A stretch of DNA of 64,000 nt from Reyranella sp. CPCC 100927 (GTDB taxonomy: Bacteria; Pseudomonadota; Alphaproteobacteria; Reyranellales; Reyranellaceae), in the NCBI RefSeq assembly GCF_007859315.1, contig NZ_VOHA01000014.1:124001-188000 (forward strand), read 5' to 3'. The notes below the pieces were generated by a model. That model searched no databases and was not told the DNA's origin. It saw nothing but the letters and a program-made list of their open reading frames with translations. This document shows, piece by piece, positions 14,859 to 21,789 of this stretch; position 1 is the stretch's first letter, and each line of letters opens with the position of its first letter. A program made the position numbers and the translations under genes.

Positions 14859-16010
14859 TCAGCGACGGGTCATGTCGATATGGCAGGACAGGCCGGTATT
14901 GGTGCGCCCACGGCCTGCCAGGCGCCCGTCCGCGATTTGAATATCGAACGTCGCTTCGTAGGGTTTGCCGGCGCCATCGACGCCATCGCCCCGCAGCGTG
15001 GCGCGGCCATCTGCCGCAACGGTGCCCGTGAGCAGGAAGCGGCGCGGGGAATCGGATGCCTGGCCCTGGAACCAGATGTCGCCGTAGCGCACCGTCAGGT
15101 TCTCGACGGATTCGAAACGGCCCGGGGCGTCGCAGCCGAAAACCCCCTTCCAGTTGCCGTCAAATGCGCGCACCGGGGGTGATGGCGGTCGCGCCGCCGC
15201 AGGGTCGGGTTTGGCCGCGTCGGCCGGCGGATTGGACGAGGGGGCCGGAGTCGCAGGGCCACCCGGCGAGGGCAGCCAACGCGCCCAGCGGGGCTTGGGG
15301 AATTCCTCCTCGCCCTGGGCCGCCGTGCCCGGCTCGGATGCCGAGTCGACGGGTGCGGCCCAGACAAAGACCTCCAGCGTGATTCCGAACGCGGCCAGGG
15401 CGGCCAGCGCGGCATGCCGCATCAACCGTGCCGGCGGCAACCGGCGCCGGTGCGCCACGCCAGCGGGGTCCTGATAAGGGCTGAGCACACGGTAAACCGG
15501 CGCCCGACCGATGTTCTTGAGATCGAACTCGCCGTGTAGCTCCAGTGTGAAACCCTGGGTTCGCTGCAGTTGCTGCGCGACGACATCGGACACGCAGACT
15601 TCACCCGGAATGCCGGCGCTCTGCACCCGCGTCGCCGTGTTCACCACGTCGCCGCGCAGGTCGCTGCCGAGCGAGATCACGGCACCGGCGTGCACGCCGA
15701 TGCGCAACGGCATCCTGTAGCTATCCGGTGCCTGCGCATCATAACCGCGGGCGTGGTACTGGATTTCCAGGGCGCATGCCGTTGCTTCGATCGCCGAACC
15801 GAAGGCGGCCAGGAAGCCGTCGCCCGTGGTATTGAAGATGACACCGCGATGGCGCGTCACGACCGGCGACAGATAGGACTCGCGCGCTTTCCAGGCGCGC
15901 ACCGTGCCGCGATCGTCGTGGCGTGCCATGGACGAATAGCCGACGACATCCAGCGACAATATTGCCGCCGTGCGCATCATGGTTGAAGTGGCCGAAGGCG
16001 GCGGAGTCAT
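14859..16010 (-). CDS. Class III adenylate/guanylate cyclase-like protein with transmembrane anchor and C-terminal domain
   Basis: Predicted about 383 residues. An N-terminal cyclase homology domain (residues about 14-180) has both metal aspartates (Asp21 in SLDVVGYS, Asp64 in TTGDGF) and the transition-state pair Asn124 and Arg128 in DVVNTATR. The residue matching the purine-selecting lysine of class III cyclases is Asn60; the partner Asp117 is kept. A transmembrane segment spans about 198-219, followed by a Pro-rich linker and a C-terminal region with a possible beta fold and a late cysteine. The topology (catalytic domain first, then one membrane span) suggests the C-terminus is periplasmic. 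The start is uncertain (ATG at 16010 or a nearby TTG). Product specificity is not predictable. Confidence 0.72.
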
Positions 16011-16102
16011 GTCTGACAATCAAACGGCGGTTGTCCGTCAATTCGGCTGACGTCCGCTTGATATAGTAGGATTGCCGCCTGCGTTAAGAGGGTCTCGCGT
16101 CA

Positions 16103-16582
16103 ATGGTCGTTCAGGCACAGCCGCACACGCCGCCGTCGGCCGGGTCGCAAGCCGACCGCAGTGCCTACGGCGGCTTCTGGCTGCGGTTCGCGGCCGCCGT
16201 GATCGATGTGGTCGCCACGTTCGTCCTGGTCGGCGTCGTTCTGCTGGGGGCCAAGCTCCTCAACATGGCCGTGGGGCGCGAGGTGTTGGGCGGCGACCGT
16301 TTCAGCAGCGTGCTGCTGATGAGCGTCGCATGGCTCTATGACGCCGGCCTCACGTCCTCCAACGCGCGGGCGACGCTGGGCAAGCTGGTTGTCGGGCTGC
16401 GCGTCGAGGATGCCGACACCCGGACGCGCGTCAATTTCCTGATCGCCTCGGGACGACACTTCGCCAAAGTGGTGTCGGTCACATTGCTGCTGCTGGGCTA
16501 CGTCCCGATGTTATGGGATCCGCAGCGGCGGGCCCTGCACGATTTTGCCGCCGGCACCGCCGTCGTGAAGCGCCGCGGATAA
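16103..16582 (+). CDS. RDD family membrane protein
   Basis: Predicted 159-residue inner-membrane protein of the RDD family. The pattern FWLRFAAAVIDVV at residues 24-36 carries the family arginine and aspartate positions, and the domain ends with DPQRRALHDFAAGTAVVKR, a standard RDD ending. About three transmembrane segments are visible (near residues 28-55, 70-88 and 118-136). Function in this family is mostly unknown, with some members implicated in ion or stress transport. It is divergent from the cyclase-like gene and may share that promoter region. Confidence 0.85.
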   Translation: MVVQAQPHTPPSAGSQADRSAYGGFWLRFAAAVIDVVATFVLVGVVLLGAKLLNMAVGREVLGGDRFSSVLLMSVAWLYDAGLTSSNARATLGKLVVGLRVEDADTRTRVNFLIASGRHFAKVVSVTLLLLGYVPMLWDPQRRALHDFAAGTAVVKRRG

Positions 16583-16712
16583 CGAATTTTCATCGCAACT
16601 GATACATCGCAGCATCAGTGTCACTGTTTGGACACTTCACGACGCGCGCGGCAGGTCGCGATACTGCGGCCATCGCTATGGCACTGCCTCATTGGGTGGA
16701 AGGAGCCACGAT

Positions 16713-16994
16713 ATGCGTCCGAAGTCAGACAAGTCAGATGCGTTGATCGAAGCCAGACGCCACTTTCTCGCCACGTGCGGCAAGTTCGCGGTGGCGACGC
16801 CACCCGCTGTTGCCTTGATGCTGTCGGCCGCCGAGCGGAACTATGCTGTCGCCGCGTCGGGCGGTGGTGGTGGTTCGCTCTCGCCGCCAGGCAACAACGG
16901 TTTCGGCAACGGTGGCGGTGACGGCGTGCCGGGCAACTCCGGCAACAACAATTCACCGAACGCCGGTGGTAAACGCGACGACACGACGCGCTGA
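16713..16994 (+). CDS. Small Tat-signal-like, Gly/Asn-rich protein; candidate substrate of the neighbouring kinase cassette
   Basis: Predicted 93 residues with no recognised family. The start is supported by AAGGAG seven bases before the ATG. The N-terminal half has a twin-arginine-like motif (ARRHFLATCGKF) and a short hydrophobic stretch (VATPPAVALMLSAA), then a change at AVAASGG to a tail rich in Gly, Asn, Pro and Ser, including NNGFGNGGGDGVPGNSG, ending in charged KRDDTTR. This resembles a leader plus core or an exported low-complexity protein. It is convergent with an operon encoding a PqqD-HprK fusion, a nucleotidyltransferase and a methyltransferase, so it is an attractive candidate for modification. 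The link is inferred from position only. Confidence 0.65.
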   Translation: MRPKSDKSDALIEARRHFLATCGKFAVATPPAVALMLSAAERNYAVAASGGGGGSLSPPGNNGFGNGGGDGVPGNSGNNNSPNAGGKRDDTTR

Positions 16995-17019
16995 TCACCT
17001 TCTCGGATCTCGGATTGCA

Positions 17020-17048
17020 GCACGGGCCGGCTGACTGCCGGCCCGTGC
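17020..17048. terminator. Bidirectional stem-loop between the small protein and the kinase operon
   Basis: GCACGGGCCGGC (17020-17031) and GCCGGCCCGTGC (17037-17048) form a perfect 12-base-pair stem with loop TGACT. It lies in the 69-base gap between two converging genes and probably ends or insulates both transcripts, although no T-run follows on either strand. Confidence 0.55.
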
Positions 17049-17063
17049 CCGTGATGGCGACAG

Positions 17064-18188
17064 TTATTGACGCCAGCCGCCCGGGTGCGCCTGGCTTCGC
17101 AAAAGGCGACCGATCCACTCTTTGGCACCGCCCTTTCGCAGGTAGCGCGCCGCGTGGCGCAGTCGGCGGCGCAGCAAGGGGCCGTGATCGCCGTAGATCG
17201 CGTCCATGCGATGGGGCGCGAACGCTGACCGGATGTTGGCCACCGGCGTTCTTAGCGGCGCCAGCATCGGCACGCGCCACTGCAGCCGGCAATGTTGAAC
17301 GTAGCGGCGAACTGCCGGTGAGGCTGGTTCAGGTAATGTCCATGGTGCGCCCAGCCAGCGATGCGCCATCAAGGCGTAGGCATGCAGCGGTGCCCGCAGT
17401 CGGTGCTGCATCAGGCTGGTATCGATAAAAGGCCAATCAATAGCCGGTCCGTCGGAGCGGGCCAGCATGGTGAATTCATAGAGCTGGCGCAGTTCGAACA
17501 GGCCACGATAGTAGTTCGCCAGGAAGTGAATCTGTGCATGCAGTACGTTGTGCAGAACCCGATCGGTCGGTGATGGTACGAAGAACGGCGTATTCCGTAC
17601 GTTGATTTCGACGGCACGACGCCAGACGTCGCGTGCCGGCAAGACGTGCGGCGTATCGAGTAACTCGAAATGGAGATCAACCGCACCGGGGTCGCCCGGT
17701 CGGGCGAAATCGCCATAGGCGTGATGACCGTCGGCGTAACGGGCGATGATGCCGTAGCCCAGTTCATCCAGCACGGCGAAGACCCGGTCGGCGGCCTGCC
17801 GCGGGACCAGAACATCAAGATCGCGAATCATGCGACCGCTTCGTTCCGGCTCGGGATCTTGAAACAATGTGGCACCGCCCTTGAGCAGCATGCCTTGGAT
17901 ATCGGCCAGCGCCAGGGCGCCCATGAGTTCCAGTGCCTGCTGCCGTAATCTGGCATTGCGGCTCGCATTGCTTTCATACAGCAGCGCGAGATAGTCGCGT
18001 ACGTCGTCGGGGAGTTCGTCCAGGCGCCGGGCGCGGGCAAGGGCTGCGTGAAGCGTAGGGCCAACAAGATGGTCATTCGCCAGCGCCATCGCTTGCTGCC
18101 AGGTGGCATCGCTGACGCTGTTCAAGGGCGGACCATCCGGTCGCAGACCGTTGCAGACAATGTCCAGGGCGCGCAGCGATCGGATCAT
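17064..18188 (-). CDS. Nucleotidyltransferase family protein (NTP_transf_5 type)
   Basis: Predicted 374 residues. The nucleotidyltransferase core is recognisable from GMLLKGGATLF near residue 110 and MIRDLDVLVPRQAADRVFAVLDELGY at about 140-165, which supplies the lysine and paired acidic residues of the family, with DLHFEL further on supplying a third acid. The C-terminal half is alpha-helical with many His and Trp residues. The family is known near HprK-like kinases and PqqD-like proteins in peptide-modification and polysaccharide loci, but its reaction is undefined. Its ATG overlaps the kinase-fusion stop (ATGA at 18185-18188), implying translational coupling. Local GC is lower than in housekeeping genes nearby. 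Confidence 0.8.
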   Translation of the reverse strand: MIRSLRALDIVCNGLRPDGPPLNSVSDATWQQAMALANDHLVGPTLHAALARARRLDELPDDVRDYLALLYESNASRNARLRQQALELMGALALADIQGMLLKGGATLFQDPEPERSGRMIRDLDVLVPRQAADRVFAVLDELGYGIIARYADGHHAYGDFARPGDPGAVDLHFELLDTPHVLPARDVWRRAVEINVRNTPFFVPSPTDRVLHNVLHAQIHFLANYYRGLFELRQLYEFTMLARSDGPAIDWPFIDTSLMQHRLRAPLHAYALMAHRWLGAPWTLPEPASPAVRRYVQHCRLQWRVPMLAPLRTPVANIRSAFAPHRMDAIYGDHGPLLRRRLRHAARYLRKGGAKEWIGRLLRSQAHPGGWRQ

Positions 18189-19396
18189 GAATCGATGCGG
18201 CGTAACCGCTCCACGGCCGAATCGAGGGAACCATAGCGCAGTTCAAAGCATGGAATTGCAGCGATCCACTGCACCAGCCGGGTTACCTTCGCGGCATCGA
18301 GACTGTCGAGCGGGCAGCATTCTCCCAACAGACGGGTCAGCGCTTCCGTACGCGTGAGTTCGATCAACTCGGCGGCGGCCTGGTGCGTGCGGTGTGGAAA
18401 GACAATCCACCCCACGGGCGCATGCGTCTCAGGCGCTATCCGCGCGGTGCCCGGTGCCGGTTGCAGGTAGCGGACTCGCTTGCCGTCGGGGCGATGGTGG
18501 ATCGGTTGGCGAGAGAGCGTGGGGGATTGGGTGCGCAGCAGTCGCCAGGCGCCTGGTTTGAGGCAGATCGCAAAGGACAACGGGCGCGCGGCCAACGTGT
18601 CCTGTGCCAGGACGATGGTGTCGTCGCTGAGGAGACCGAAGCCGGCCATGACCAGGGCCGCAGTCAGCGTACTCTTGCCGCTGCCTGAAATGCCCGGCAG
18701 CAACAGGCAGCGGCCGCTGTGCTCAACGCCGGCGGCATGGAAGGCAAAGGCATCCTGGCTGTGCTGCAGGGCGCGGCGGACCAAGCCAATCTTCACCAAA
18801 GGCGCGATTTCGTTCCGGCGACATCGGGTGACCGTGCCGTCCGGTTCGTGCAAGGCGAACCCGTCGCTGTGCGGCGTGACATGCAGGACGAGCGCGTCCG
18901 CCGTCGAGGTCGTAATCAACGACTCGAGCAACGGCTTGAGATCGTGCATCGGCGCCGCAGGCGTAACCCGCAGTCTGAAGGTGGTATCGAGCAGCCGAAG
19001 ATGGATCGTTTCGGCATCCAGCGAGACGTCGCACTCGGCAGGCTGACGCAACAAACCCAGTGTGCGCCAGCGGTCAAGAATGTCGTGCAGGTGTGTGCGG
19101 GCAGCAGCGGTTTCGAAACCGAATGTCCGTTCCAAACCGTGCGCGATTTGCGCGAAGTCGAATCCTTCTTCCAGACAACACCAGATGTAGGTTGCCGCCG
19201 TATTGAGACTGTAGAGCCGATGCGTGTTGGCGTTGAAGAGCACACCAGCTTCATCCAGGAGATGCAGCGTGATGCCGGGGGCGGGGCCTTCTCGTACGGG
19301 CGCAGGCGGACACGTGGGTGCCCTGGACCCGGTGGTCAGGCCGTGCGATGCCTGGGCGTCGGCCGTTACAGTCTCTGGCCTGATAACGGCGGGCAT
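18185..19396 (-). CDS. PqqD-like domain fused to HprK-related kinase
   Basis: Predicted 403-residue fusion. Residues about 41-120 match PqqD-type peptide-binding domains (GVLFNANTHRLYSLNTAATYIW then TFGFETAAARTHLHDILDRW and LGLL). Residues about 205-400 match HPr kinase/phosphorylase-related kinases: FHAAGVEHSGRCLLLPG, Walker A GISGSGKST at 235-243, and LLSDDTIVL at 255-263 with the conserved acidic pair. The middle section (about 120-200) is a beta-rich linker. In known HprK-related (HPr-rel-A) systems the PqqD-like and kinase parts are usually described as separate proteins, so the fusion couples substrate recognition to phosphorylation. It lies 16 bases after fkbM and overlaps the nucleotidyltransferase gene by four bases. 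Confidence 0.85.
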   Translation of the reverse strand: MPAVIRPETVTADAQASHGLTTGSRAPTCPPAPVREGPAPGITLHLLDEAGVLFNANTHRLYSLNTAATYIWCCLEEGFDFAQIAHGLERTFGFETAAARTHLHDILDRWRTLGLLRQPAECDVSLDAETIHLRLLDTTFRLRVTPAAPMHDLKPLLESLITTSTADALVLHVTPHSDGFALHEPDGTVTRCRRNEIAPLVKIGLVRRALQHSQDAFAFHAAGVEHSGRCLLLPGISGSGKSTLTAALVMAGFGLLSDDTIVLAQDTLAARPLSFAICLKPGAWRLLRTQSPTLSRQPIHHRPDGKRVRYLQPAPGTARIAPETHAPVGWIVFPHRTHQAAAELIELTRTEALTRLLGECCPLDSLDAAKVTRLVQWIAAIPCFELRYGSLDSAVERLRRIDS

Positions 19397-19412
19397 GGCA
19401 GTTGATCCATGG

Positions 19413-20168
19413 TCAGGCCGTAGCGCTCCATCGGTGATCGGCGCGCAGTGGCGAATCGTCCTTTACGAACAACAGGTCGAGTTGTGCCAGTGCCCGGTCG
19501 AGTGGGCGGCGACCGCCACCCAGGACGTCGTAGACGACGAAACCTTGCTGGTGAAGATAGGCGACCACCTCGGCGATCTCCGGCCCGTTCTTGATGGTGG
19601 CAATCACACTGGCTTCGATCAGGATCGCATCAACGTCGTGGATCCGCTCGCCCATGCCACGCAGCACGCTCATCTCGGCGCCCTGCACGTCGATCTTGCA
19701 CAGGGCGGGCCGCTCGAAACCGTCGATCGCCTGATCGAAGCGCCGTACCGGCACGGTATAGCGGCGCGTCGGGCCCAGCGGGCCGATCTCTTCATAAAAG
19801 GTCGAACCGCCGATGTCGTTGGTGCGCACGCCGATTTCGAGCTCACCCTCCTTGTCGCCCAGCGCGACGTTGAGCACCTTGGCGTCCAGCCGCCGTGAGA
19901 TGTTCTCCATGTACGGCAACGACTCGCGGGTCGGATCGATCAGATAGTAGCGGGCGTCGGGAAAAGCCGCGTAGAGCTCGGGCGTCCCGTGGGCGACGCC
20001 GATGTCGAACACCGTCCGCGGCTCAAATCCCTGAGCGCGCAGGTTGCGCAGGACGAACGGCCATGCGGGCACGACACCGATCATGCGATGCAGCACCAGC
20101 GTCGAATAACTCATTGCGCGTTTGACCACGGCCTTCGCTGGATTACGCACCATCATGCTCGCCATCAT
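19413..20168 (-). CDS. FkbM family methyltransferase
   Basis: Predicted 251-residue SAM-dependent methyltransferase of the FkbM type. The SAM-binding start is TVFDIGVAHGTPELYAAFP (about residues 52-70); YYLIDPTRESLPYMENI follows, and the FkbM-typical LCKIDVQGAEMSVLRG lies near residue 165. Members usually methylate hydroxyl groups on sugars or secondary metabolites. It is the first gene of the three-gene minus-strand operon with the PqqD-kinase fusion and nucleotidyltransferase, so its target may be the glycan or peptide made or modified there. The exact ATG is uncertain because several lie close together. Confidence 0.85.
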   Translation of the reverse strand: MMASMMVRNPAKAVVKRAMSYSTLVLHRMIGVVPAWPFVLRNLRAQGFEPRTVFDIGVAHGTPELYAAFPDARYYLIDPTRESLPYMENISRRLDAKVLNVALGDKEGELEIGVRTNDIGGSTFYEEIGPLGPTRRYTVPVRRFDQAIDGFERPALCKIDVQGAEMSVLRGMGERIHDVDAILIEASVIATIKNGPEIAEVVAYLHQQGFVVYDVLGGGRRPLDRALAQLDLLFVKDDSPLRADHRWSATA

Positions 20169-20417
20169 GTCTCACTGCCCCGCGATGGAAAAAAAGAGGC
20201 AGCCCCGCACGGTCAGGTGTGAGGCTGTCATCAGATGTAATGGACCAGGCACGGGTTGGTCAGCAGGCCGAAACGTCAAAACACGGAATGATCACTGCGC
20301 TGTGACGGGCAGGTTTGCCGCTCTCGATCACGGCAACGTGCGCTTGATTGCTTCGAATCGCGTGTCCGCCTGCTGTCATCAGGCGCATGCTCAATGTTGA
20401 GCACAGGGGAGGGTGAC
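20169..20417. other. Divergent non-coding region upstream of fkbM operon
   Basis: About 250 bases between the fkbM start and the small coiled-coil gene. The part nearest fkbM has an A-run (GGAAAAAAAGAGG on the plus strand) and scattered AT-rich words, so the fkbM-operon promoter should be here, but no convincing -35/-10 pair or palindrome stands out. I see no coding potential in it. Confidence 0.4.
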
Positions 20418-20609
20418 ATGGACGAACGTGTAGCCAAGGCACTGATCGACGTCGCCGACGTGATCAAGAATGGCCAGCAGGCGGCCGCGGCGCAGGAATC
20501 TGCATGGTCAGGGTTGGAGCAATTGGCGGCTGCCATCGGCGTGTTGGCGACGCAATGCGCCGCGCTCGAGAAGCGCTTGCAGGCGGTTGAAAGCAAAGTC
20601 GCGCACTGA
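20418..20609 (+). CDS. Small coiled-coil protein of unknown function
   Basis: Predicted 63 residues, almost entirely helical, with heptad-like spacing of Leu, Ile, Val and Ala (VAKALIDVADVIK, LEQLAAAIGVLATQCAALEKRLQAVE). The start is supported by GGGGAGGGTGAC before the ATG at 20418. No domain is recognised. It is transcribed away from the fkbM operon and toward the lipoprotein gene end; it could be an accessory oligomeriser but nothing in the sequence assigns a role. Confidence 0.55.
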   Translation: MDERVAKALIDVADVIKNGQQAAAAQESAWSGLEQLAAAIGVLATQCAALEKRLQAVESKVAH

Positions 20610-20679
20610 GTACGCGGCGTTGTCGCTGTAGACGGCGGCAGAATGCGTTTGCCCTGGGATTTGGCCAGCGCTGATCGCG

Positions 20680-21789
20680 CTATCGGCTGCCGCCCTTGTT
20701 GCGGTCGCGGGCGATCAGGTCGGCAATACCGTCGGAAGCGGCCAGGGCGACGATCGGCGCCAGCCGTTCCCAGTTCCCGTCGAGGCTGCCGGCCCGCACC
20801 GTATTGGCCTGCTCCAGATCGCCGATCTGTGTGCCGTCGCCGCGACGGATCACCCAGCGGATGACGACACGCTGCCGGCCTTCGACCGGCGGTGCCAGTT
20901 CGACAGTGCCTTGGATCTGAAACGCATCCGACTCGGCACGATCCACCAGCACCATCTGGCTTTCGCCGAGCGCGCGGCGCATGGCGGATGTCATCGCCTT
21001 GCTGGCTTCCGGCACGCCGGTGACTGCCAGCACGCGCACGCGCGGGGCGTTGCTCGCCGCCGTCAGGACGGGCGCCGGTGTCGTGGGAGGCGGTGACGGT
21101 GTTGTCGCTGGCGGCGCCGGTGGCGTGACGGACGGCGGCGGTGATGGGGCTCCGGGGTAGTCCGGTGGTGTCGTTGGCGTGGGCGGATTGCCGCTGGCCG
21201 GGCCCGGATCGGCGCTGCTGGCGGGCAGCGGCGGCAAGGTGGCCGGTCCCAGAGCATCGGGCAACGCGTCGATCGGCACGTTGGCGAGATCGCCGCGGCC
21301 GAGCTGGCGGCCGATCCGGAATGCGGCCTGCGTGGCGATGCGGGAAATCAGGCGATCGTCGGCCTCGAACCAGTCCCGCGGCCTGCCGATCAGCCGCTGG
21401 TCATTGCCGCCGATCCGCTTGCCGCCCTCGTCATGCACGGTCCAGGTGATGTCGATCTGGACATCCTCGCCGGCATCGCGCGTGGCGACCGTGGCGCTGA
21501 TGCGCTTCAGGGCACGCGCCGGCGCCGGCGTGGCGACGATGCCGTAGTTGCGCAGCGCCAGGGCCAGCGAAGTCGCGATTTTGTTCGCCATTTCCGGGCG
21601 CGGCCCGACGGGTGGCGCGATGACGAACTCGGGTTCTTCGCTGACGGGATGGGCACCCGGCGGCACCGCCAATGCGGCGTCGATCTTGGCGTCGGGCTGG
21701 AACGGCTTCGGCGTGTCGGCGCACGCCGCCAGCGCCGCGATCAGGGCGCCGGCGGCCGCGGCGATGCGCGTCAGCTCAGGCCAGCGCAC
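20680..21789 (-). CDS. Proline-rich lipoprotein of unknown function
   Basis: Predicted 369 residues with a signal peptide and lipobox LAAC at about residues 20-23, so probably an envelope lipoprotein. Two similar domains flank a long Pro/Thr/Ser linker (about residues 195-240). The N-terminal domain contains NKIATSLALALRNYGI and DWFEADDRLISRIATQAAF; the C-terminal domain contains VRVLAVTGVPEASKAMTSAMRRAL. Both look like the alternating helix/strand pattern of proteins that pair a small-numbered gene family near pgeF in alphaproteobacteria. It follows pgeF on the same strand and is probably the last gene of the lgt-midA-pgeF operon. Function unknown. Confidence 0.75.
   Translation of the reverse strand: MRWPELTRIAAAAGALIAALAACADTPKPFQPDAKIDAALAVPPGAHPVSEEPEFVIAPPVGPRPEMANKIATSLALALRNYGIVATPAPARALKRISATVATRDAGEDVQIDITWTVHDEGGKRIGGNDQRLIGRPRDWFEADDRLISRIATQAAFRIGRQLGRGDLANVPIDALPDALGPATLPPLPASSADPGPASGNPPTPTTPPDYPGAPSPPPSVTPPAPPATTPSPPPTTPAPVLTAASNAPRVRVLAVTGVPEASKAMTSAMRRALGESQMVLVDRAESDAFQIQGTVELAPPVEGRQRVVIRWVIRRGDGTQIGDLEQANTVRAGSLDGNWERLAPIVALAASDGIADLIARDRNKGGSR

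Follow-up and report, generated by a model that had tools for sequence, protein, structure and literature searches.

In the HPr-rel-A cassettes of NCBIfam, an HprK-related kinase (TIGR04352) goes with a PqqD-type peptide chaperone (TIGR04353) and, as we assume, a nucleotidyltransferase of the PF14907 type. ScmC and ScmD of the SynChlorMet cassette are presumably a kinase-like and a PqqD-like protein, respectively. Kinases also tailor lasso peptides: according to the pseudomycoidin passage of a review, PsmK phosphorylates the C-terminal Ser, and PsmN, annotated as a nucleotidyltransferase, is needed for the addition of one or two hexoses to Ser; the same passage leaves undecided which of two activities, glycosyltransferase or nucleotidyltransferase, PsmN has (PMC9266682). 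Nearest in kind are recognition elements (RREs) of ribosomally synthesized and posttranslationally modified peptides (RiPPs) that are paired with Sec-signal precursors (PMC12710340); in the portions of main text consulted, neither that paper nor PMC7470986 mentions a kinase, and the former does not mention twin-arginine translocation (Tat). Among open-licence full texts, no description of an HPr-rel-A/Tat-leader system was found by title or abstract. Here, we analyze a locus in a 64,000-nucleotide stretch of contig NZ_VOHA01000014.1 (positions 124,001 to 188,000; hereafter, the window) from the 9.1-Mb genome of Reyranella sp. CPCC 100927, a member of the Alphaproteobacteria. The locus encodes a PqqD-HprK fusion, a nucleotidyltransferase-fold protein of the NTP_transf_5 type (NTP protein) and a small protein with a Tat-like leader, and we conclude that these three probably make up one leader-guided protein-modification system. 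Their partnership is based on gene linkage, co-distribution, leader conservation, an RRE-like model fold, conserved active-site-type residues, and the presence of TatC; binding, phosphorylation, the acceptor residue, a second modification and export are steps that we infer.

A first-pass annotation of the window had placed the fusion and NTP genes, overlapping by four bases (18185-18188), behind an fkbM methyltransferase gene at a gap of 16 bases, with a 93-residue Tat-like protein facing the NTP gene; the genes, positions and spacings are all as it gave them. The fusion matches the PqqD family PF05402 over residues 52-116 (E 1.4e-7) and HprK_rel_A (TIGR04352) over residues 211-400 (114 bits; family cut-off, 200), and as a whole it scores 23.2 bits with TIGR04353 (cut-off, 35). 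The small open reading frame (ORF) is a real gene, conserved at the protein level, with 76%, 63%, and 57% identity to the window copy in loci L009, L016, and L010, respectively. Neither the window copy nor ten homologues gave a convincing Pfam or NCBIfam family; the weak listings of NF041440 (E 0.11, window copy), TIGR04117 (E 0.014, two of the ten), and PF02738 (E 0.008, one of the ten) were taken as chance.

The same annotation had set co-occurrence of the small protein with the fusion as a test beforehand, and the prediction came true. Among 76 genomes of the order, the kinase profile (E ≤ 1e-20) and the small-protein profile (E ≤ 1e-3) match the same six, and both are negative in the other 70 (Fisher p 4.6e-9, a value too small owing to relatedness and obtained with profiles partly built from rows of the same six genomes). 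The 70 shared absences do not stem from training of the profiles on positives. In the positive genomes, the fusion and the small protein adjoin. They include three of the four genomes of the window genus, the rest being scattered over two other genera, and this patchy joint presence suggests that the kinase and the small protein were gained or lost together.

In the class (385 genomes), the small-protein profile has 18 matches in 11 genomes, 8 of which carry a fusion-type kinase, compared with 2 of the 374 others; without the profile's three source genomes, the fraction is 5/8 (p 1.8e-8). The ten genomes counted as fusion-type (G000, G003, G153, G161, G306, G385, G420, G432, G441, and G454) were chosen by judgement, with weaker kinase matches excluded. 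G196 carries divergent, separate kinase, PqqD, and PF14907 genes (L118, contig C179), and its small protein lies on another contig (L068). Free-standing small proteins also exist. Two, from two genomes of one genus, lie at L066:8772-9071 and L069:8489-8785, both near a similar ORF (MPSLPAAP...) and in stretches with no fusion kinase. G153 has a cluster of three small ORFs (L076:8430-9488) that combine this type of leader with Cys-rich tails, on a contig other than that of the kinase. A small-protein match in G116 (L082, E 7e-4) looks by eye like chance.

Plasmids provide a further set of loci, found with the fusion alone. This protein search gave 29 records, ten of them listed, and nine were examined; H6, judging from its row apparently a near duplicate of H5, was left out. 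In all nine, a small-protein match lies no more than about 1.3 kb from the kinase, in eight cases downstream of the NTP gene and in one, a weak match in L129 (E 0.003), immediately upstream of the kinase. The loci do not amount to nine separate lines, with L127 and L134 both from Sinorhizobium meliloti and L130 and L135 sharing an identical small protein. No further small-protein match at E 0.05 was found among the 1518 ORFs of the plasmid loci. The sequence NNGxGNG is kept in the six strongest tails of this set. In L127 (S. meliloti pSymB, CP090106.1:674362-685417), the three genes lie side by side, annotated in CP090106.1 as serine kinase, nucleotidyltransferase family protein, and hypothetical protein, and the system is present on pSymB in two S. 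meliloti strains.

Counting each locus once, the small protein is adjacent in 23 of 29 fusion-type loci, namely, the nine plasmid loci and 14 genome loci (the window, L009, L010, L011, L013, L014, L015, L016, L064, L070, L074, L079, L115, and L116); fusion-type is defined here by profile score, with the PqqD part not confirmed locus by locus and the L074 kinase cut by a contig end. The small protein was not found at L073, L117 (which has a doubtful twin-arginine ORF), or L124, nor at L077, L078, and L125, where the contig is short or stops close to the kinase. Outside this tally stand the distant kinase loci L080, L081, L083, and L118 and the duplicates L012 and L067; L081, L082, and L126 were assessed by profile alone.

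The leader of the small protein follows the pattern R15R16xFLxxCGxFAxxTPP..., ending in AVA/AS. Across ten aligned proteins, the window copy included, R15, R16, F18, L19, C22, G23, F25, A26, T29, P30, P31, L37, A47, and S49 are invariant. A twin-arginine motif, a hydrophobic stretch, and an AxA site, features of Tat substrates, are present by sequence and by a hydropathy scan with thresholds of our own setting; signal peptidase likely cleaves after A47, as judged from this pattern, and the window genome has a TatC gene. C22-G23 and T29-P30-P31 are not needed by export alone, which suggests a second reader of the leader. A reading of C22 as a lipoprotein cysteine was dropped by eye, since it lies six residues past the twin arginine without a hydrophobic stretch before it.

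Among 23 small proteins, the leader is kept while the tails differ, with mean pairwise identities of 54% and 43%, respectively; the gap is modest, possibly owing to the ease with which low-complexity tails align. The tail motif NGxGNGxxDGxPGxS is found in 13 of the 23 leader-bearing proteins, that of the window included. L013, L014, and L064 each encode two paralogues that resemble one another in the leader and differ in the tail, the second tail in L013 and L014 being DTVCFDGPNGINCKS-like. A conserved leader with a variable core is thus found among paralogues of the same locus, a trait of the kind seen in RRE-dependent RiPPs.

The structural model of the fusion has a mean predicted local distance difference test (pLDDT) score of 84, with residues 1-34 and 121-125 below 50. 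Its PqqD part resembles lasso B1 structures solved with leader peptides (5v1u, 5v1v, and 6jx3; Foldseek target template modeling [TM] score, 0.88-0.92), and its profile matches TbiB1 (E 4e-8) and TfuB1 (E 7e-6). Model and profile thus support the earlier proposal that this part is a leader-binding domain. For the fusion overall, the best-ranked fold matches are phosphoenolpyruvate carboxykinases (TM ≤0.43), with HprK lower (E about 1e-3); HprK and these carboxykinases are kin, and the sequence profile of the fusion brings up B1 proteins and HprK. In the kinase part, H220, the P-loop GxSGxGKST (235-243), and D258-D259 are invariant in ten sequences and align to those of HprK 3tqf; we take them to be the catalytic residues. 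The NTP protein (model pLDDT, 86) is nearest in fold, weakly, to nucleotidyltransferases such as ANT(2'')-Ia (best E 7e-4), and its profile search brought up no solved relative by sequence. G104, D123, D125, and D171, presumably its catalytic positions, are invariant in 11 aligned sequences. In L013 (9282-10398, genome G033), the match to the fusion kinase is split over two frames that overlap, which suggests a reading frame broken by a mutation or by an error in the assembly.

The first-pass annotation had mentioned HPr-rel-A cassettes with separate PqqD and kinase proteins. Such cassettes were found, and their Tat-leader partner is an addition to it. TIGR04352 exceeds its cut-off in 10 of 385 class genomes (8 loci examined) and 60 of 398 phylum genomes (27 further loci examined), and 30 of these 35 canonical loci (L084-L091, L093-L114, and L119-L123) have, immediately upstream of the kinase and on its strand, an ORF whose leader is Tat-like. 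Those of L086, among the first eight, and of L095, L100, L111, and L112 were judged by eye to qualify. A leader profile trained on seven class loci was run on 34 new loci, a few of them close to the training loci (L119 and L090 are of one genus). It matched 18 of the 27 canonical ones at E 0.0012 or better, each time on the kinase strand and no more than about 450 bases upstream, with the L096 ORF overlapping by frame extension, and no other of the 3683 ORFs reached E 0.1. Over 12457 ORFs, training loci included, the profile gave 26 matches at E 0.01, all less than 2 kb from a kinase. These strict counts come from the trained profile, earlier motif scans having been noisy in GC-rich DNA, with many false matches.

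In all eight loci chosen for inspection, the ORF between the leader protein and the kinase is a PqqD protein, seven of which pass the TIGR04353 cut-off. No Pfam or NCBIfam family matched more than one of 29 canonical leader proteins (L093 excluded) at E 0.01. Fourteen of the 30 leader proteins carry [ST]CWxS in the C-terminal part, often at the very C terminus, and five carry a [ST][PH]Gxx-aromatic motif (SPGxW-like); both are candidate acceptor regions by their sequence. In a kinase tree, all 14 fused rows are set apart from all 24 canonical rows (support 97/95), in a tree with an arbitrary root and several long-branched fused rows, from which 17 of 55 input loci were dropped when the P-loop pattern was not found.

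If the three proteins do act together, the PqqD part of the fusion would bind the conserved leader of the small protein in the cytoplasm, and the HprK-like part would phosphorylate a hydroxyl of the tail, most likely that of S76 in VPGNSG. The NTP protein may then attach a nucleotide or sugar, either at the phosphate or at a different residue of the tail. The modified small protein would exit via Tat, with the leader removed after AVA.

Several observations weigh against such a modification system. The small gene of the window converges on the operon and is not part of it, and both parts of the fusion score below the family cut-offs. Ten of the 23 homologues lack the S76 motif, 11 of the 18 small-protein matches of the class search lie away from a fusion kinase, and the kinase of G432 (L073) and one of two in G306 (L124) have no adjacent small protein, those of G432 lying elsewhere (L071 and L072). 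Among canonical loci, no leader ORF was seen at L101, L102, L108, L113, and L122 (5/35). G188, rated 100% complete, has a small protein with the Ser motif and no PqqD or PF14907 match, and its kinase-profile match is confined to a 50-residue P-loop region. Free-standing small proteins may be relics, imports, or proteins working unmodified in some hosts. G188 also lends weight to the idea, which we consider unlikely, that the small protein is an exported functional partner and not a substrate, such as a periplasmic carrier or acceptor of a small-molecule product of the kinase and nucleotidyltransferase: since NGxGNGxxDGxPGxS is kept there (L069) without PqqD or PF14907, the tail may work unmodified. 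Such a partner would, however, leave unaccounted for the fusion of a leader-binding-type domain to the kinase, the conservation of the leader beyond the needs of export (C22, G23, T29, P30, and P31, all invariant in ten), and the recurrence of a like arrangement with different tails in canonical cassettes.

It is still less probable that the small protein is a bystander and the kinase targets HPr-like proteins encoded elsewhere or a small molecule. The kinase part is indeed an HprK relative, but the small protein adjoins the kinase in otherwise differing surroundings, all nine plasmid loci included, and the two share a patchy presence in the order. A comparison of window ORFs of at least 150 residues with nine loci (E 1e-25) showed many common neighbours on both sides in L009 and L016, which belong to the window genus. 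In L011, L015, and L064, the kinase and NTP gene were the only window ORFs matched, and L010, L013, and L014 each added one match of 28-33%; L070 gave, at this threshold, no match to the cassette and a single unrelated one of 37%. Chance neighbourhood through synteny is ruled out by these differing surroundings outside the genus. The comparison also bears on the methyltransferase, to which the first-pass annotation had given a role in a three-gene operon. The operon stands only within the genus, fkbM lying directly before the fusion in L016 as in the window, with its 16-base gap; in L009, about 1.7 kb with other ORFs separates the two, and fkbM has no match in the examined stretches of the seven loci outside the genus (L010, L011, L013, L014, L015, L064, and L070). 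Within the genus, FkbM is 82-87% identical, versus 57-65% for the kinase. FkbM was rejected as a system member and is a genus neighbour: it adjoins the cassette within the genus alone, where the synteny extends further, and the other loci share little beyond the kinase, the NTP gene, and the small protein. A four-gene pathway with FkbM methylation of the small protein is accordingly the least credible account of the locus. A defence-system reading was also dropped, the four proteins having no PADLOC match at E 0.01.

The features of the locus are collected in Table 1. An AAGGAG resembling a ribosome-binding site lies 5' of the small-protein ORF (16700-16705). The region around the hairpin between the converging genes (17000-17062, plus strand) folds at -36.9 kcal/mol (z -4.3); the hairpin is not among the terminator-like sites of the terminator scan, which numbered 4 in 16500-20400 versus 2.3 (standard deviation, 1.7) in shuffles. 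No sigma-70-like promoter was found in 16500-20400.

Table 1. Features of the locus (window positions unless a locus is given)
Feature	Position	Strand	Evidence or remark
Small protein (candidate precursor, likely substrate)	16713..16994	+	93-aa ORF; conserved, near fusion in other genomes
Small-protein leader, residues 1-49	16713..16859	+	Invariant residues in 10 aligned sequences
Small-protein tail, residues 50-93, Gly/Asn-rich	16860..16991	+	Motif NGxGNGxxDGxPGxS
Candidate acceptor S76 in tail	16938-16940	+	Within motif NGxGNGxxDGxPGxS
12-bp perfect hairpin between converging genes	17020..17048	.	No T run; possible two-way terminator
NTP_transf_5-type nucleotidyltransferase-fold protein	17064..18188	-	374 aa; PF14907 E 4.3e-43
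PqqD-HprK fusion	18185..19396	-	403 aa; PF05402 and TIGR04352-type matches
HprK-like kinase part of fusion, residues 211-400	18197..18766	-	Invariant residues; alignment to HprK 3tqf
PqqD/RRE-like part of fusion, residues 42-116	19049..19273	-	TbiB1/TfuB1 profile matches; Foldseek
FkbM methyltransferase	19413..20168	-	Neighbour, judged outside system; TIGR01444 75 bits, above cut-off
Second small paralogues	L013:10402-10737, L014:10872-11264, L064:5760-6158		Leader kept, tail different

HPr-rel-A is named in NCBIfam, yet a family for its target is absent from the libraries searched. The Tat-leader proteins beside 30 of the 35 canonical loci and the fused variant provide a concrete candidate substrate for each such cassette. 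We tentatively raise the possibility that HPr-rel-A and its fused variant form one widespread, unrecognised class in which RRE-guided kinases and nucleotidyltransferases put a phospho-nucleotide or phospho-sugar on Tat-leader proteins before export. If true, this would join leader-guided peptide modification to Tat export, with phosphorylation and nucleotidylation as the main chemistry, and would yield periplasmic or surface proteins with a modification undescribed for such proteins.

Compared with the known systems, the window kinase has P-loop, His, and Asp-Asp residues that align with those of HprK; it differs from HprK in being fused to a PqqD part and in scoring 22 bits against a cut-off of 240, and no HPr gene was seen in the cassette. 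Both parts of the fusion also match ScmC and ScmD of the SynChlorMet cassette, weakly and far below the cut-offs. Lasso tailoring by paeninodin PadeK and pseudomycoidin PsmK/PsmN, as covered in the relevant passages of PMC9266682, is alike in that a kinase and a nucleotidyltransferase-annotated protein act on a precursor peptide, and the PqqD part of the window fusion matches lasso B1 proteins. In contrast, the putative window precursor has a Tat leader and a Gly/Asn tail, and the four cassette genes include no lasso B2 or C; none of the eight window ORFs scanned (14859-21789) matched a B2 protease or C macrolactam synthetase. From HPr-rel-A, the window cassette differs in the fusion of PqqD and kinase, with the sub-cut-off scores noted above and a kinase separated from the canonical ones by a supported branch, and in a partner that has a CGxFAxxTPP leader and lies downstream, facing the operon. 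Both have a PqqD-type domain, an HprK-related kinase, and a PF14907-type protein, the gene for which adjoins the kinase in the window cassette and its relatives, and both have a small Tat-leader protein at the locus, a feature found here and outside the NCBIfam naming. The window cassette is a fused variant of the HPr-rel-A kind.

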